Positions 6,018 through 49,439 of a DNA stretch of 64,000 bases are shown here, piece by piece; the first letter of the stretch is position 1, and every line of letters begins with the position of its first letter. The position numbers and the translations under genes were made by a program. Origin of the DNA: Tubulanus polymorphus (lineage: Eukaryota > Nemertea > Palaeonemertea > Tubulaniformes > Tubulanidae); the NCBI RefSeq assembly GCF_964204645.1, contig NC_134027.1, positions 13,628,485 to 13,692,484 of the forward strand. The letters run 5' to 3'. The notes beneath the pieces are model-generated. The model saw only the letters and a list, made by a program, of their open reading frames with translations, had not been told where the DNA came from and searched no databases.

Positions 6018-7856
6018 ATGATAAAATCTGGAAGTTGCGAGTATGATAATATCTTGTATGTATTAATCATGTAATAAGGGGCTAAGAATTAATGAAGTGA
6101 TTAGATTTTGAATAAAAGATGAAGTTTGAAGAGTTTGTTCAGCATATCGTCAGTTGATGGTTATAATTCGGTAATCTTTTCTACATTCGATTGCAATCCA
6201 AATTAGTTTATAGTTAGAATAATATTTTTGACAAAATACACTCAATGATTTGATGGTGAGCCACAGGGCCATTTGACCTTTATCTTGGAAACTGCAAACG
6301 ATTCAACTGCCTGGATTGGTCCTGGACGGCCGTGAAAAGCAGTGAATCTTATAGAAGGGCAGAGAATTTGGGAAAGGGGGATGTGAATCTTAGAAATTGT
6401 TGAATTTATGAAAATAAATTGTCTAACAAATTGAAATAAATAAATCGTCACACCATAAAGATGGAGAGTGTCTATTTGAAAACCCACTTCCATATATATA
6501 TTCATGAGTAATCATCATGCAGTTGTGTGTGATAACAATATGTATAGTGCTTCACGGAGATCATGTCAATAGACAGATTTTCATAAAAACTTCTTGATTC
6601 AATCAATGGGGCATCTTAGGCTTTTTTGATTATTTGGAGCATGGATTCTCTGAAATTCCGCTTGCCAGGGTTTCATAAACCCTGGACACAAACCCTTCAT
6701 TGATCTATTACCCCGTCCAAGATTTCAGCGGCCACTTAGTCTATGAATTAAGCCAATCAGATGCATTGTTTTTCAACGGCAGATTCGCAGATCCCCTGTG
6801 CAACGTTGTCTATTTCCTGATTGTCAAATCGAAGAAAGCGCCACATAGTGGCACGTTGCCAATTCAACGCAAATTTCTCGAGAATTTTTAATGGTACGCT
6901 ATGAGTTTGTGTATGAAATTGACTTCATTGGACTGTTCCCCACGCATACTGCTTGTCAATACTAAATTTAAAACTTTAGTGGTGCAATAGCAGTTACTAG
7001 GCGAAACATCACCTCTCGCAAATTTGCGAGATCAGTCTTTTCAGGGTCATCCCATTCTCTTTCAAAATTGCAAGAGCAGGTTCCTAAGAGGTAACACATG
7101 TTTCTTAAAGAACCGTATTATACATTGTGAGCCATTGACTCCTGAGCCATTGTGAGCTCATGTGTTACACAGTAGAAAGGTAACTACCCTCAAGGCTGTC
7201 ACTTGGGTGCAATTCCAGTGACACAAAGCAACAGGTACAACAGAATTTCTAGCCTTATTTTCCTGTGAATTGCTTATTTTGGTTTGAAATAAGTGCTTAT
7301 AAGTGCTGATTTTGACCATTGTCTTACAACTATTAACCCTGTAATAGATGGGAAATATCGGGACTAGATGAATAACGAGATAAAAGTGACTCTGTGCTAA
7401 ATTCGACAACTCTTTACCCGAGGTTTACTGTATATGTTCCTAGAGCAACTCTGAAATTTCTAAATGATTAAATTAATTATGTTGTTGTTACGTATGTCAA
7501 GTCTCCAATACTGATGATAAGATAGACTAAGGTGTCATAAGCATTCGGTTCATTCATCATTTTAGGTCATCAATAAAATGTATGCTACTAATTTCAAATG
7601 ATATTATAGTAGGATTGCCACAATCTGGTGTGAAGAAAATATAATTAGTTTAGAACCATTATTAAAACCTTAATTAGCTTTAAATATAGAAAGGTGAAAA
7701 AGTTCAAAAGCAAAATTTATCTCAAGGGATGATGTTGAGAACCCTTTTAGGGGGGAACTTATCATCTATTCTTCACGTCAAGAGTGTGGATGGTCTTTAG
7801 AGAGAGTCGAAAATACTGTGGGTTTGAAACTTATTGATTATATTGTACATTTTTAG

Positions 7857-27295: not shown

Positions 27296-27445
27296 ATGAT
27301 GATTATTCCTGAAGATGACTATTAGGATATAGTCGAAACGTTGAATAAACTACTATCTCGAAGTTTCATTTTCGGACTTTTTATTATCATTGTGGGATTC
27401 TCTCCTCATCGCGTCAACACGGATATTGTGTTTTACCTATCGTGA
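27296..27445 (+). mobile_element. Penelope-type element end with hammerhead-like core
   Basis: A 150-base insertion: the family-4 copy at about 22018-22100 reads straight from ATTTCTAACGCA to TTTACCACAAA, while here the two halves are separated. The insert contains CTGAAGA (27309-27315), a six-pair stem GACTAT/ATAGTC (27317-27322 with 27329-27334) and GAAA (27335-27338), the core layout of a hammerhead ribozyme. AATGATGATTA at its left pairs roughly with TATTATCATT further right, as stem I would. CTGAAGATG...CGAAACG phrases are typical of Penelope-like element ends. Stem III and the cleavage site are not clear. Confidence 0.6.
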
Positions 27446-27637
27446 TTTACCACAAATCCTGTAACTTCAAGTGTGGCAATGAATTTCAGGCCAGGGGTAT
27501 TGTAAGCTTTGCCTTATGCTACCTATTTTCAAAGGTTTGTACATTAATGATGCTGCTAGTCAGAAAACCCAGTATTGCTGCTTTGCAGCTATTTTTGATG
27601 GAGTTATCTTAGAGTAGAACTGGTTTCTATCTTTCAG

Positions 27638-27712
27638 GTGAATGTTTAAACGTTTTTGGAACATTTAAGTGCAAATGCTCTAAAGGATTTGGTGGTCATG
27701 ACTGCTCTATTG
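27638..27712 (+). CDS. CELSR: CELSR exon: EGF4 second half
   Basis: A phase 1-1 exon of 75 bases after CTATCTTTCAG, ending at GTATGT. It reads GECLNVFGTFKCKCSKGFGG, then HDCSI, and supplies the last four EGF4 cysteines. The following intron is 14.7 kb and holds the KDZ transposon and the tandem duplication. Confidence 0.92.
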
Positions 27713-28489
27713 GTATGTACATATAAGATTGGATCATCCATAACTGAAAACTGTTGCATTTGATTTTTAACAGGGAGAACAGGAACAAGTCTATTACCCC
27801 CTATTTGGCTATAGCATTCAATTTTCTGTAATGTCTGTAATGGTATCTTGTGAGGGTTTTTCGGCTTCTTGGTCAGGTATATAATAGTCATTAAATTGAC
27901 AAGTTACTCGGGCATTTGCTCGGCCGAGCATAATTGAAGAAATTTTAAAAAGTTGTTTACTCGGCCGAGTGACTGATCCAATTTCGCTATGTCACTCGAC
28001 CGAGTAATTGTAATCTACTCACCAAGAGTTAGAATATATTTTGCGCTATACACGGTACATGGGAAAAACCCATATATTTCGTGACAAAATCAATGATACG
28101 ATACAATATTGCGATGTACTACGTTTTGCGTTTTTTTAATGATTTGACGTGACCTATATTTGCCGTTATAACGCCACCAAAAAAGAAAACGTGAGCAATA
28201 CAAGACTCCTAGTATTTATTCTGAAAACTTTTTAAGAAAACGCAGTGCTAACGGTTAGACAGTATCGGTTTTGATAACAGCCAGCCGCAAAATAGGTCTA
28301 CTGGCGCAACGTTTTTAAAGCTTTATTTTCATACAATCGTGACCCTCTCGTGACTGGTTCAGTTCAGTTCAAATAAACGGAATATGGCTTTTAATTATTT
28401 CTATCTTTTCTAAAGAATGGGTCGTATAAATGTCAAGCTTCTTATTTTGCGTGGCCTTTTATTCACTTAAATTTAAATTCTCTGCCTAG

Positions 28490-28734
28490 TGATGACGCCA
28501 GAGTCTTGCTCACGAAATTAGTGTATTTGAGCAAAGTTGTTAGTGGAATGCGTTCTACCAACCAACACTGGGTAGATGAATCATGTTGTTTTCAGTGGTG
28601 GCCTGAAAACCTGCCGTGGAAGAATCCCCGATGTGATATTCGTCCCGTGGAGGCGCGCTTCGATCCTTACACAGATGTTGTAAAGAGATTTTGCAGATTG
28701 GCGTATGTTTTTCATAGATGTGAAAACTTGACAG
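28490..28734 (+). CDS. Exon of unrecognised plus-strand gene inside the KDZ element
   Basis: Follows CTCTGCCTAG and ends at donor GTACGC in phase 1. The open frame reads RVLLTKLVYLSKVVSG, then WVDESCCFQWWPENLPWKNP and FDPYTDVVKRFCRLAYVFHR. It is rich in W, C and charged residues and does not look like chance sequence. I do not recognise the family. Upstream exons, if any, were not identified. It may be an accessory protein of the transposon. Confidence 0.5.
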
Positions 28735-29698
28735 GTACGCAAAAATAAATGTTATTCTAATTTCTAATTTGAACTTGCTATCAAAATTGTTCGAAAGCAA
28801 AAATCAAACAATTAAGAGTATAATGCAACTGGAAAAATGTCCCATAAGGTAGAAAAAATGCCCTAGTCTATCATTACTAATTTAGTAAATTTCCCATAAA
28901 AACATCAAAGAACAAACTTGGAATTGTGTAAATAAATTGCACACTAACCTTAAAAAAGAATTCATTAGGTGACCGTGAGAATTATAGGCCTAGAATTTTG
29001 GGCATTAATTAATTTTGCCTTTTGAGAACTCATTCGAACTCATGCATGATACATCAAATTTGAGAAGATTTTAATTTAGTAATAGAAATGATTAAATCAA
29101 ACAAGAGCCATTATTTGTTATCAAATTTTACGGATTTTCTGGAAATTTTAGCTACTGATTTGAGATAATAAAACTTATGGCTTGCGTCTTTTCTTTTTTT
29201 GAGAGAATTTATCTTTGTTGTTATAAAGAAAATCCTTTCAAACAAAAACCCATATGGTTTCACCGTATTTTCATAAGGCCTGTGGCTTATTGTGTATGGC
29301 TTATGTTCTGGCAGTATTGTTTCGTCTTTCAACATCTGTTTATTAGTGGGAACAAGCAGTGTCCTTAACGCTTATGTAATTGATATAAATAGTCTACACA
29401 CAGACACATTGCAACAGGGAATCCTGTGATCAATAGGCGCATAAGGCTATTATTACAAGCGTGCTGTATTGTAACTCAGCGGAGATGAGTCGCGCGTATT
29501 CTAACTTATAAATGTTTAAATTACGAGTATAATAATAATATATACCTACCTACCTACCTACCCATTTTGGTGATTGCCCCGCCTGAGAAACATTTTTTCT
29601 TATGTGGCCTTACATGTAATTAATGAAAAAGCCTTATTGTTCTAATTATACATGTACTTTAATTGTGAATGTCAATGTGAATACCATATCAATTTCAG

Positions 29699-29802
29699 AT
29701 TTAGTTGTCTCGGCACTCCACTCTACTGAAATGTCAGAAGAAGGAGGCAATAAGACGTATGTCTTGGAAGAAGATGGAGAGGACAGAGGAAGAGGAAATT
29801 GA
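29699..29802 (+). CDS. Last exon of the same unrecognised gene, acidic tail
   Basis: After ATCAATTTCAG, and in phase with the exon ending at 28734. It reads DLVVSALHSTEMSEEGGNKT, then LEEDGEDRGRGN, and a stop at 29800-29802. The joined product has a very acidic C-terminus. The stop lies about 200 bases from the end of the convergent transposase gene. Confidence 0.45.
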
Positions 29803-30004
29803 CTGAAAAAATGCAGGATTACAACCAGAAGAAAAAACGTATTCACTAAACCAGATTAACCATATTATTATTAATCATATTACGTGTACTACAAATGTAT
29901 TATAATCATTGTAAAATTTATTCACTTAGTGTATGTGTACATACATTATGTTTATATTTTAGTAAAATTCAATTCATAGATTCAGATATCAAATTTATTA
30001 TACA

Positions 30005-30213
30005 TTCGTTCTTTTATCTCGGTTTTTTATTGCGAGGAACAAAGCAATGTGCCGCATAAAGTTCTCAGGCTTAATATATGCTAACTGTGATTTCAGGCGA
30101 ACCAAGCCACCATTTGCTTGTTTGTTGTCTTGGCTGTTGATATTTATGACATCCAACTTCGCTTTGTATAAGTCAAGAGAGTATCCATCGCAGCACCTGT
30201 AATTACAGTAGAT
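30005..30213 (-). pseudogene. KDZ transposase, last exon
   Basis: On the minus strand, after AATTACAG. It encodes CCDGYSLDLYKAKL, INSQDNKQANGGLVRLKSQL and NFMRHIALFLAIKNRDKR, then stop. The N-S/T-x(3)-E-Q-x-(N/T) region of KDZ transposases normally carries an acidic residue where this copy reads N-K-Q (a single-base E-to-K change would explain it; inference). The family's usual segment between the previous exon and this one (an RFHW-type stretch) is absent. Confidence 0.65.
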
Positions 30214-30303
30214 AAAACATATTAAAAATGTATCTAAGAAAGATGATTCACTCATGAATAAGTTTCGTATGGACAATTTGTCAACTGAAGTGAAAACACT
30301 TAC

Positions 30304-30425
30304 CTATTCAAACAGTACTGATGAAGTTTACAAGCATTGTCGTACACGATAAGGTTAGGAGGTTTCGAAAACCTTTTCTTGAAGATGCTGAATGGATGAT
30401 TCGGCGATTCGTGACTTTCCATAAC
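30304..30425 (-). pseudogene. KDZ transposase, middle exon with YDNAC motif
   Basis: Minus strand, after CATTTTCAG, ending at donor GTAAGTG. It encodes MESHESPNHPFSIFKKRF, then LIVYDNACKLHQYCLNR. The YDxAC motif carries one of the catalytic aspartates of KDZ (Kyakuja-Dileera-Zisupton) transposases. Phase fits both neighbours. Confidence 0.75.
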
Positions 30426-30507
30426 CTGAAAATGATAAATATTTTTCATCTTTAAAAATCTATTCCCATCCGACACTAGATTACTCAATTTCTAAGGTTT
30501 TTCTTAC

Positions 30508-30664
30508 CTGAAATCCGTAATTAATACCATGAAGACAAAACACTGTAAATATTCCTGGAGTCAGGACTCTGTGACACTTCAAATATTTTTGACACCTGTC
30601 TCTTTCACTCTCCCTACAATTACTTCTAGCTTTGTGTGTTGTATCCATTTTGTATGACGCATCT
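30508..30664 (-). pseudogene. KDZ transposase, upstream exon
   Basis: Minus strand, after TATTTCAG, ending at GTAAGAA. It encodes ASYKMDTTHKARSNC, CQKYLKCHRVLTPGIFTVFC and HGINYGFQ. The cysteine-rich segment followed by GIFTxxCxHGxxYGFQ leads directly into the VMESxESP motif of the next exon. Confidence 0.7.
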
Positions 30665-30788
30665 CTGAAATATTTATGAGCAACTGTATTAAAAACAACC
30701 CATTTCATGTAATTCTATAACTGAAATGAAGAATTACTTACTTACATAGCGATAAAATATTTACAGATTCAGTTCCATTGCTTTCTTC

Positions 30789-31097
30789 CTATTCATCCGG
30801 ATTGACAGCACTTGGTAATAATATTTTAACTGCTTTGCAGTGTATACAGTAAGCATCGGATTGCTTTCCATAAAATGACTTCACAGGTTCACTTAGACTC
30901 GTTGATAACGCCCGAAGATGAAGCTTGTTACTCTCTCCAATAAAACAGGTACACGTCAGTAACGAGCAGGATTCATCCATATGTGTGAATCTGAATTCTT
31001 TCCTAACTACACAATGTTGAGAACTTTTATAATCCGCCAATACAAAAGCATTATTTGAAATCATCCAGAATTTCTCACTTCTTTGAAAATCCTGCAT
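30789..31097 (-). pseudogene. KDZ transposase, N-terminal cysteine-rich exon
   Basis: Open frame on the minus strand with RFTHMDESCSLLTCTC, then DAYCIHCKAVKILLPSA. The CxC and CxxC pairs fit the zinc-binding N-terminus of KDZ proteins. The exact splice sites to the next exon are not clear and further exons toward 31900 are likely. Confidence 0.5.
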
Positions 31098-32275
31098 ATA
31101 ATTGTATTCCAGTTTAATTACGATACTGAGGAAAGACGATGAACAAACATCTCTGAAAAGTCAAAAAAAAAGCTTTTTACTACAGTAGTCCAAACAAAAA
31201 AGCTTATGGTTGTAGGCCTATGCGAAATGTCACAGAATTGTAAGGTACATTTTTGTAACCTGCATTAATGTTAATTTTTCTTTCATCCTTATTGGTACAA
31301 ATTTCGTATATCACCTTTTGTATCATCATCCACAACCATGTAAGATTTTATGATGAATAAACATTGATAGATTTTAAAATAGCCCACTACTGAGTGCTCG
31401 GATGATAATTCTGACCGAGCATTCGTTTATTATTCTCACAATACATGACCCAATATAAACAGAACCGAATCATGGGAGTTACTTCAGTTCATGGGAGATA
31501 GTGCAGAGTGAAGGGGTCACAAGCTTACATCGTAGCAGATTTCGAATTTGATCAAACTTATCAAGTAAGTTATGATAATTAGGATTAGGAAAACCTACGA
31601 TGTATTGTAATACTAGTAGGCCTGTTGTTATTTATTGTTGGTTACTTACTGCAACATGGTCTGGAGATTTTCCTCCGGTCGTGGAGTAGATGAGTTTTTT
31701 AATCCCGGCGCTCTTGTATTATTTGATTTTGAAGCACATGATGAAGTTCTGCCGTTTCGACGGTGTTACAGTTGATGAGATCGTACTTTTTCGTTTTTCA
31801 CGTTTCTTACAAGGAACTATATTAGCGTTGCGTGCTTGGCGAGGCATTCTCAATCAATTATCTTGAAGCGAGCGCGACAGTGGCCGTGCGTGAGGAATAC
31901 GGACCGGACCAAATTCAATTTAATTTTATTTTGTGAACCGATTAGGTGGCACCCACAGACATTTTATGAACTAATTGTTTGCTCGACTGAGAGGGTAAGA
32001 ACGAAGTTTACTGATATCTTGGCCGAGTGTGACTGCAGAATTTAATCAGTCACTTGGCCGAGTAGATTGGCGAATTCTTACGTTTGCTCAGCTTTTACTA
32101 AGATCAGCCGAGTGAATTGTCAAATTCGAACAATCACTCAGCCGAGTAAACAACTTTCTGATATAATGCTCGGCCGAGCATATGCCGGAATAACTTGTCA
32201 ATTAGGACCATATTCTTTGTAGAATACCTTAATTTTTTCCTGTGTATTAACATTTAATTCTGTAGATGATTATTG

Positions 32276-49255: not shown

Positions 49256-49439
49256 CTTAATCATTATAAACTTCCTGGCAGTAACGAATGTCGGCCATGT
49301 GATTGCTATACACTTGGATCTGTTAGTCGTAAATGTGACCCTCGGAATGGACAGTGTCATTGCAAGGATGGTGTTACTGGACGGCAATGTGACAGGTGCT
49401 ATAGTCGTTATGGGGAAATAACATTACAAGGATGTCAAA
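49256..49439 (+). CDS. CELSR: CELSR exon: laminin-type EGF
   Basis: Phase 0 to phase 1. It encodes NECRPCDCYTLGS, SRKCDPRNGQCHCKDG and GRQCDRCYSRYGE, the eight-cysteine laminin EGF pattern that precedes HormR in CELSR proteins. The acceptor is TTTTTGTGACAG and the donor GTAAGT at 49440. Confidence 0.95.

Follow-up and report, generated by a model that had tools for sequence, protein, structure and literature searches.

The 64,000 nucleotides of the nemertean Tubulanus polymorphus analyzed here (contig NC_134027.1; hereafter the window) contain a 4.3-kb mobile element with two convergent genes, a spliced transposase gene on the minus strand and, on the plus strand, a gene whose product resembles the animal protein NRF1. 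In our reading, held at a probability of about 60%, the element is a DNA transposon of the cut-and-paste type that carries two genes, has decayed, and belongs to a divergent lineage of KDZ (Kyakuja, Dileera, Zisupton) elements. Related copies in the same genome fall into six subfamilies (F1 to F6), and the window copy belongs to F1. A preliminary description placed the element at 27894..32203. Its existence holds, and terminal inverted repeats of 52 nt (85%) are present at 27894-27945 and 32152-32203, yet the real ends lie further out, at about 27874 and 32222, because the outer sequence is shared with the ends of other genomic copies. By this comparison the left end reads CAGGTATA, and the right end is diverged from the GAGCTATA ends of other copies. 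A left-end query returned 41 matches in the genome (268 Mb). Across the 23 of 30 excised loci whose outer end sequence was inspected, CAGGTATA occurs at seven left ends (the window's included) and GAGCTATA, read inward, at seven right ends, while the others differ or break off. Palindromes of the form CTCGGCCGAG (at most one mismatch) are found seven times in the window, all within the two ends of the element, against an expectation of 0.17 and with 0 of 100 shuffles reaching seven. No target-site duplication was recognizable by eye at the window copy.

The plus-strand gene, previously listed as being of unknown family, is indeed present, with an exon at 28488-28734 and a second exon from 29699, and can now be classified as NRF1-like. 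The first of these exons matches Pfam PF10491 (27.9 bits, cut-off 23.5, E = 2.3e-6) as well as solved NRF1 chains (8k3d, E = 4.7e-7; 8k4l, E = 2e-6). An acidic tail had also been attributed to its product; this is at least partly a frame effect, as the C terminus is basic in relatives L053 and L056 (RKPTEKM...) and the matching stretch lies out of frame here. In the best copies the gene has an open frame of about 180 codons, and the PF10491 match spans profile positions 55-208 in L053 and 45-208 in L006, thus reaching beyond the DNA-binding domain. With L053 as query, solved structures aligned over the DNA-binding domain only, so the N-terminal, presumably dimerization, part is assigned from the Pfam profile.

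Residues that contact DNA in NRF1, as described in PMC10810270, tend to be conserved. Among 12 aligned sequences (11 of 20 transposon loci and the host NRF1 exon), the counterpart of R206, which touches DNA bases in NRF1, is the sole invariant column (12/12). Conservation reaches at least 90% at the equivalents of W224, N242, and D246, and R244 is matched by R or K. Between the six subfamilies the NRF1-like proteins are 25-57% alike, and rows covering the DNA-binding domain show 25-36% identity with the host NRF1 exon. A genome-wide search with PF10491 yields 21 matches: five exons of one normal-looking host NRF1 gene (C3:7491174-7492411), found as separate matches, and 16 separate loci. In F2-F4 copies, the region corresponding to these five host matches lies in one open frame.

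Both genes announced by the preliminary description are found at the locus in convergent orientation, and both are broken in the window copy. The N-terminal half of the NRF1-like gene is retained in L051 (the C39 copy, at 6138-6428) and lost here, where the alignment breaks at element position 576 versus L051 positions 1420 and 6422.

Features of the element, in coordinates of the window
Feature	Position	Strand	Basis or remark
Whole element, decayed copy of subfamily F1	27874..32222	.	Shared left end CAGGTATA; right end placed from the GAGCTATA ends of other copies
Left terminal and subterminal region, CTCGGCCGAG-type palindromes at 27919, 27960, 27995	27874..28016	+	
Internal deletion junction	28460..28480	.	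N-terminal half of NRF1-like gene, kept in L051, lost here
NRF1-like DNA-binding domain exon	28488..28734	+	PF10491, PDB 8k3d; donor GTACGC at its end
Last exon of NRF1-like gene	29699..29849	+	Preceded by acceptor TTTCAG; basic C-terminal motif of relatives in another frame
Transposase exon D, NxQAN region, K for the E of relatives	30001..30195	-	65% to L053
Transposase exon C, IVYDNAC motif	30303..30425	-	78% to L053
Transposase exon B	30508..30663	-	54% to L053
Transposase exon A remnant, open frame, acceptor near 31153	30789..31160	-	31% to L053 (94 aa)
Possible first transposase exon, basic N terminus, donor GTAAGT, frame interrupted	31650..31847	-	Read from sequence, no relative aligned
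Right terminal and subterminal region, palindromes at 32018, 32053, 32137, 32169	31980..32222	-	

The spliced minus-strand transposase gene proposed earlier is likewise recognizable from its exons, several of which are missing in the window copy. Of the L053 pieces used as queries, B, C, and D have counterparts here, A is represented by 94 of its 275 residues, and A2, A3, and the DRxHWxNH piece gave no credible match. At the E of NE(Q/K)AN the window has K, and the other five of six aligned sequences have E. Five spliced cores from relatives (L053, L055, L057, L059, and L054, with stops in L055 and L054) have in common the motifs D-x-x-Y, HES, DN(A/C)C, LNREP.FF, DRxHWxNHxGC, and NE(Q/K)AN. 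Two of the five were scanned against Pfam: the L053 core passes KDZ (PF18758) at 29.7 bits (cut-off 26.6), and the L057 core hits 0 families. The 689-aa chain of L053 matches only CxC4, at 22.3 bits and so under the cut-off of 26.9, and a CxC4-like cysteine region occurs below threshold in two subfamilies. A profile of the five cores aligned by hhalign to three KDZ sequences of the same genome, two of them nearly identical, reaches 94.9% probability (E = 4.7e-8, 140 columns), compared with 0.3% for a reversed-sequence control. The window's own transposase exons, searched singly, gave nothing in Pfam, no locus of the NRF1-carrying family was listed in a six-frame genome search with KDZ, and no relatives were found in viral_contigs. 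The label KDZ/Zisupton therefore stands at the level of the superfamily and not for Zisupton in the narrow sense, because the duplications described below are 7 bp rather than 8 bp and the lineage is diverged. The transposase is presumably of the DDE type; its dN/dS, from few substitutions, is 1.07 in F2 and 0.35 in F3. Elsewhere in the genome, 20 further KDZ matches (13 loci by manual grouping) are present, none coinciding with the 20 NRF1-like loci, and other KDZ transposases of at least two types are represented by L062, L063, L064, L065, and L066.

Each of the six subfamilies yielded the left end CAGGTATA in at least one copy (F1, window, L051, and L057; F2, L053; F3, L055 and L058; F4, L059 and L008; F5, L052; F6, L013). 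The left end of L056 is CAGTATAG, and in L054 the ends were not found. For elements bounded by CAGGTATA...TATAGCTC, a flanking 7-bp duplication was seen in five copies, perfect (7/7) in L057 (GACACTT), L051 (AAATATT), L026 (CCCTCCC), and L056 (TATATTT) and matching at 6/7 in L053. Duplications of 8 bp and 9 bp were rejected, as the match pattern fits 7 bp. The L026 copy (minus strand 1481-2638, C2 near 10.08 Mb) is only 1158 bp long and has both ends and its duplication, which shows that short derivatives of the family exist.

The two genes recur together across the genome, in convergent orientation. A search with the L053 core gave 54 exon matches, which were grouped into 18 transposase loci, and an NRF1-like gene lies within 10 kb of 14 of these, convergent in 14/14; among multi-exon transposase loci the companion is present in 14/14. 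The four loci without it (C5:14.67M, C7:14.08M, C4:15.90M, and C5:12.77M) are each a single short match. Counted from the other side, 14 of 20 NRF1-like transposon loci (16 by PF10491, plus the window, C4, C7, and C2:15.36M) are paired with a transposase, where chance would give about 0.0015 per locus. Both locus counts should be taken as minima, given that only the best candidates are scored when the genome is searched. In L051, L057, L053, and L056 the NRF1-like gene is enclosed by the shared termini, and in the pair at C1:16.08M the genes are 8.3 kb apart. The C4 and C7 copies appeared to lack the NRF1-like gene when searched with PF10491 alone; this was rejected once degraded remnants were detected. 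That two unrelated repeats were nested by chance, one that is NRF1-like lying within or next to a KDZ element, might be suggested by the unpaired NRF1-like loci (6/20) and by L052, which adjoins a hAT gene, but is highly improbable given the consistent convergent pairing at multi-exon loci, the four copies with shared termini, and an L052/L019 homology that ends before the hAT gene. The latter, a hAT-like gene with a dimerization-region match at L052 5824-8125 (plus), about 1 kb downstream of the NRF1-like gene, was rejected as an alternative partner because the homology with relative L019 stops short of it. A second hAT-like gene, open over 712 aa with DUF4371 and hAT dimerization matches, is nested in the C39 copy (L051 2634-4772, minus).

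The subterminal repeats differ in sequence between subfamilies. We observe CTCGGCCGAG palindromes in F1, TACTCGCGCGAGCA and TGCGCG (x4) in F2, TGCTCG (x10) in F3, TGCTCA (x7) and the palindrome TGCTCATGAGCA in F4 (the NRF1 site being TGCGCATGCGCA), TGCTCA (x9) in F5, and TGCGCG (x4) in F6. In an unsupervised count, the top six-mers are CTCGGC in F1, CGCGAG in F2, TGCTCG in F3, and TGCTCA in F4 and F5. When the NRF1 half-site TGCGC is taken together with its one-mismatch variants, it ranks first of 512 five-mer neighborhoods (mean z of 2.76 over six subfamilies). In part of the subfamilies the end repeats appear to resemble the NRF1 site, a likeness to GCGCATGCGC-like NRF1 target DNA drawn from comparison of the repeat sequences.

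These observations lead us to a model that we hold at a probability of about 60%, in which the NRF1-like protein binds the end repeats and aids transposition, expression, or both. Gene 1, on the minus strand and in several exons, is the transposase. Gene 2, convergent on the plus strand, encodes a protein of the NRF1 family, with an NRF1-profile N-terminal region, an NRF1 DNA-binding domain, and a basic tail in the better copies. This protein would bind the subterminal repeats as NRF1 binds TGCGCATGCGCA and, once bound, may recruit or position the transposase at the ends and/or may drive the two genes of the element, the promoters of which are presumed to be immediately internal to the repeats.

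Several observations weigh against this interpretation. The five-mer ranking was designed post hoc, after the TGCTC pattern had been noticed, and its signal comes from F4 and F5, because only these subfamilies rank 1 (F1, 187; F2, 100; F3, 49; F4, 1; F5, 1; F6, 60, of 512). The TGCGC set is not enriched in F1, the subfamily of the window (z of 0.3), exact TGCGC exceeds the shuffle maximum in 0 of 14 ends tested, and in F6 the most enriched six-mer is AACTGA, with TGCGCG third. The F4 and F5 repeats are free of CpG and could be CpG-decayed TGCTCG. In F5, an origin of TGCTCA by CpG decay is made slightly less likely by copies L004 and L005, which are open and almost identical, and by L019, whose left part is 96% alike. 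On the protein side, the putative N-terminal region of gene 2 is matched by the Pfam profile and by none of the solved structures, whose alignments cover the DNA-binding domain alone, and in L015, outside the contact-residue alignment, R206 is replaced by Leu and D246 by Glu. Among the candidate end pairs, 11 in number, 4 share 6-7/7 flanking bases and 7 share 1-4/7; we take the latter, unverified, as chance or decayed pairs. Six of the 20 NRF1-like loci (C3:14.175M, C3:14.154M, C5:12.791M, C6:14.105M, C5:14.822M, and C2:15.360M) have no transposase within 10 kb, and the window copy itself cannot be active. Evidence for selection on the NRF1-like gene within subfamilies is weak, as substitutions are few: six overlapping pairs have synonymous changes and give dN/dS of 0.37, 0.55, 0.51, 0.62, 0.86, and 0.30, and a seventh pair, L007/L006, has 0 synonymous and 6 nonsynonymous changes.

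A credible though doubtful alternative is that the chief role of the NRF1-like protein lies in anti-silencing or expression, like that of VANC: it would bind the end repeats and keep the ends unmethylated or transcribed without belonging to the transposition complex. VANDAL/VANC is a plant system whose protein and transposase are unlike those here. In Arabidopsis, VANC binds family-specific tandem motifs in noncoding regions and coevolves with them (PMC5735166), a pattern that the subfamily-specific end repeats resemble; the two systems also share the plan of a transposon-encoded companion with family-specific repeated noncoding motifs (PMC5735166), and they differ in that VANC function was experimentally tested whereas that of the NRF1-like protein is predicted from sequence. 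The possible transposase start is downstream of the palindromes at the right end of the window element, at a distance of about 170-330 bp, as an expression role would have it, and fungal KDZ elements likewise carry a second, nontransposase gene, encoding TET/JBP dioxygenases (PMC12730594), in place of which the companion here is NRF1-like. Against an anti-silencing role stand the CpG-free TGCTCA repeats of two of the six subfamilies.

It is unlikely that the gene is a passenger, that is, a copy of host NRF1 captured by one element and without function in transposition. The host NRF1 is a normal-looking gene seen as five matches that correspond to one open frame in F2-F4 copies, as such a capture might leave behind. 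Nevertheless, in subfamilies only 25-57% alike the gene has kept its convergent position and its DNA-contact residues, which would need long selection. This conservation of protein and contacts between distant subfamilies is a stronger argument for selection than the within-subfamily ratios.

The likeness to KDZ elements consists of the Pfam match of one relative, the CxC4-like region below cut-off, and the profile match within the genome. Zisupton and a Dileera family have 8-bp duplications (PMC12730594), unlike the 7 bp seen here in five copies (four perfect, one 6/7). Two Kyakuja families have 7-bp duplications, CA..TG ends, and no terminal inverted repeats (PMC12730594); our elements agree with them in the 7 bp and the 5' CA and depart from them in a 3' end of TC and the presence of terminal inverted repeats. 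Harbinger elements of the Nuwa lineage also combine a transposase with a separate DNA-binding protein, a Myb/SANT companion (PMC12730594), with a different transposase, a different DNA-binding domain, and 3-bp duplications. Ascidian factors are covered in PMC8122590. With animal NRF1, the transposon protein shares the DNA-binding domain with its base-contact residues R206 and N242; it differs in being multicopy and located inside transposons, in its tail, and in having repeats that vary by subfamily.

Animal NRF1, also known as alpha-Pal, EWG, and P3A2, is an activator of mitochondrial and many housekeeping promoters. The DNA-binding mode of its dimer has been called novel (PMC10810270), and its origin is not addressed in the accessible text of that paper. 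We tentatively raise the possibility, improbable as it may be, that animal NRF1 arose by domestication of a protein that bound the ends of a KDZ-type transposon, in which case the CpG palindrome of NRF1 would be a relic of subterminal repeats. As to whether host NRF1 or the transposon gene came first, the deep divergence of the subfamilies fits an old transposon gene, and the one-frame NRF1-like core fits either direction. Diverse transposons that keep an NRF1-like protein together with NRF1-site-like repeats offer a direct route to the question of where NRF1 comes from, and would be a further, animal example of transposons that encode their own sequence-specific companion protein. No report of an NRF1-like gene paired with a KDZ transposase was found by the searches made of the open-licence literature, Repbase reports not being covered.

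All 19 NRF1-like transposon loci on large contigs sit at 37%-61% along the contig, perhaps in centromere-near regions, and of the other KDZ matches 9 of the 11 placed sit at 48%-65%. Directly left of the element in the window, an EGF-like exon (GECLNVFGTFKCKCSKGFGGHDCSIG) with splice-like signals is recognizable by pattern at 27637-27712, so the element may sit within an intron of an EGF-domain gene. The window also contains, by pattern, a laminin-type EGF-like stretch at 49298 and, at 27311-27343, a single copy of GAAGATGACTATTAGGATATAGTCGAAACGTTG, which resembles a fragment of another repeat.

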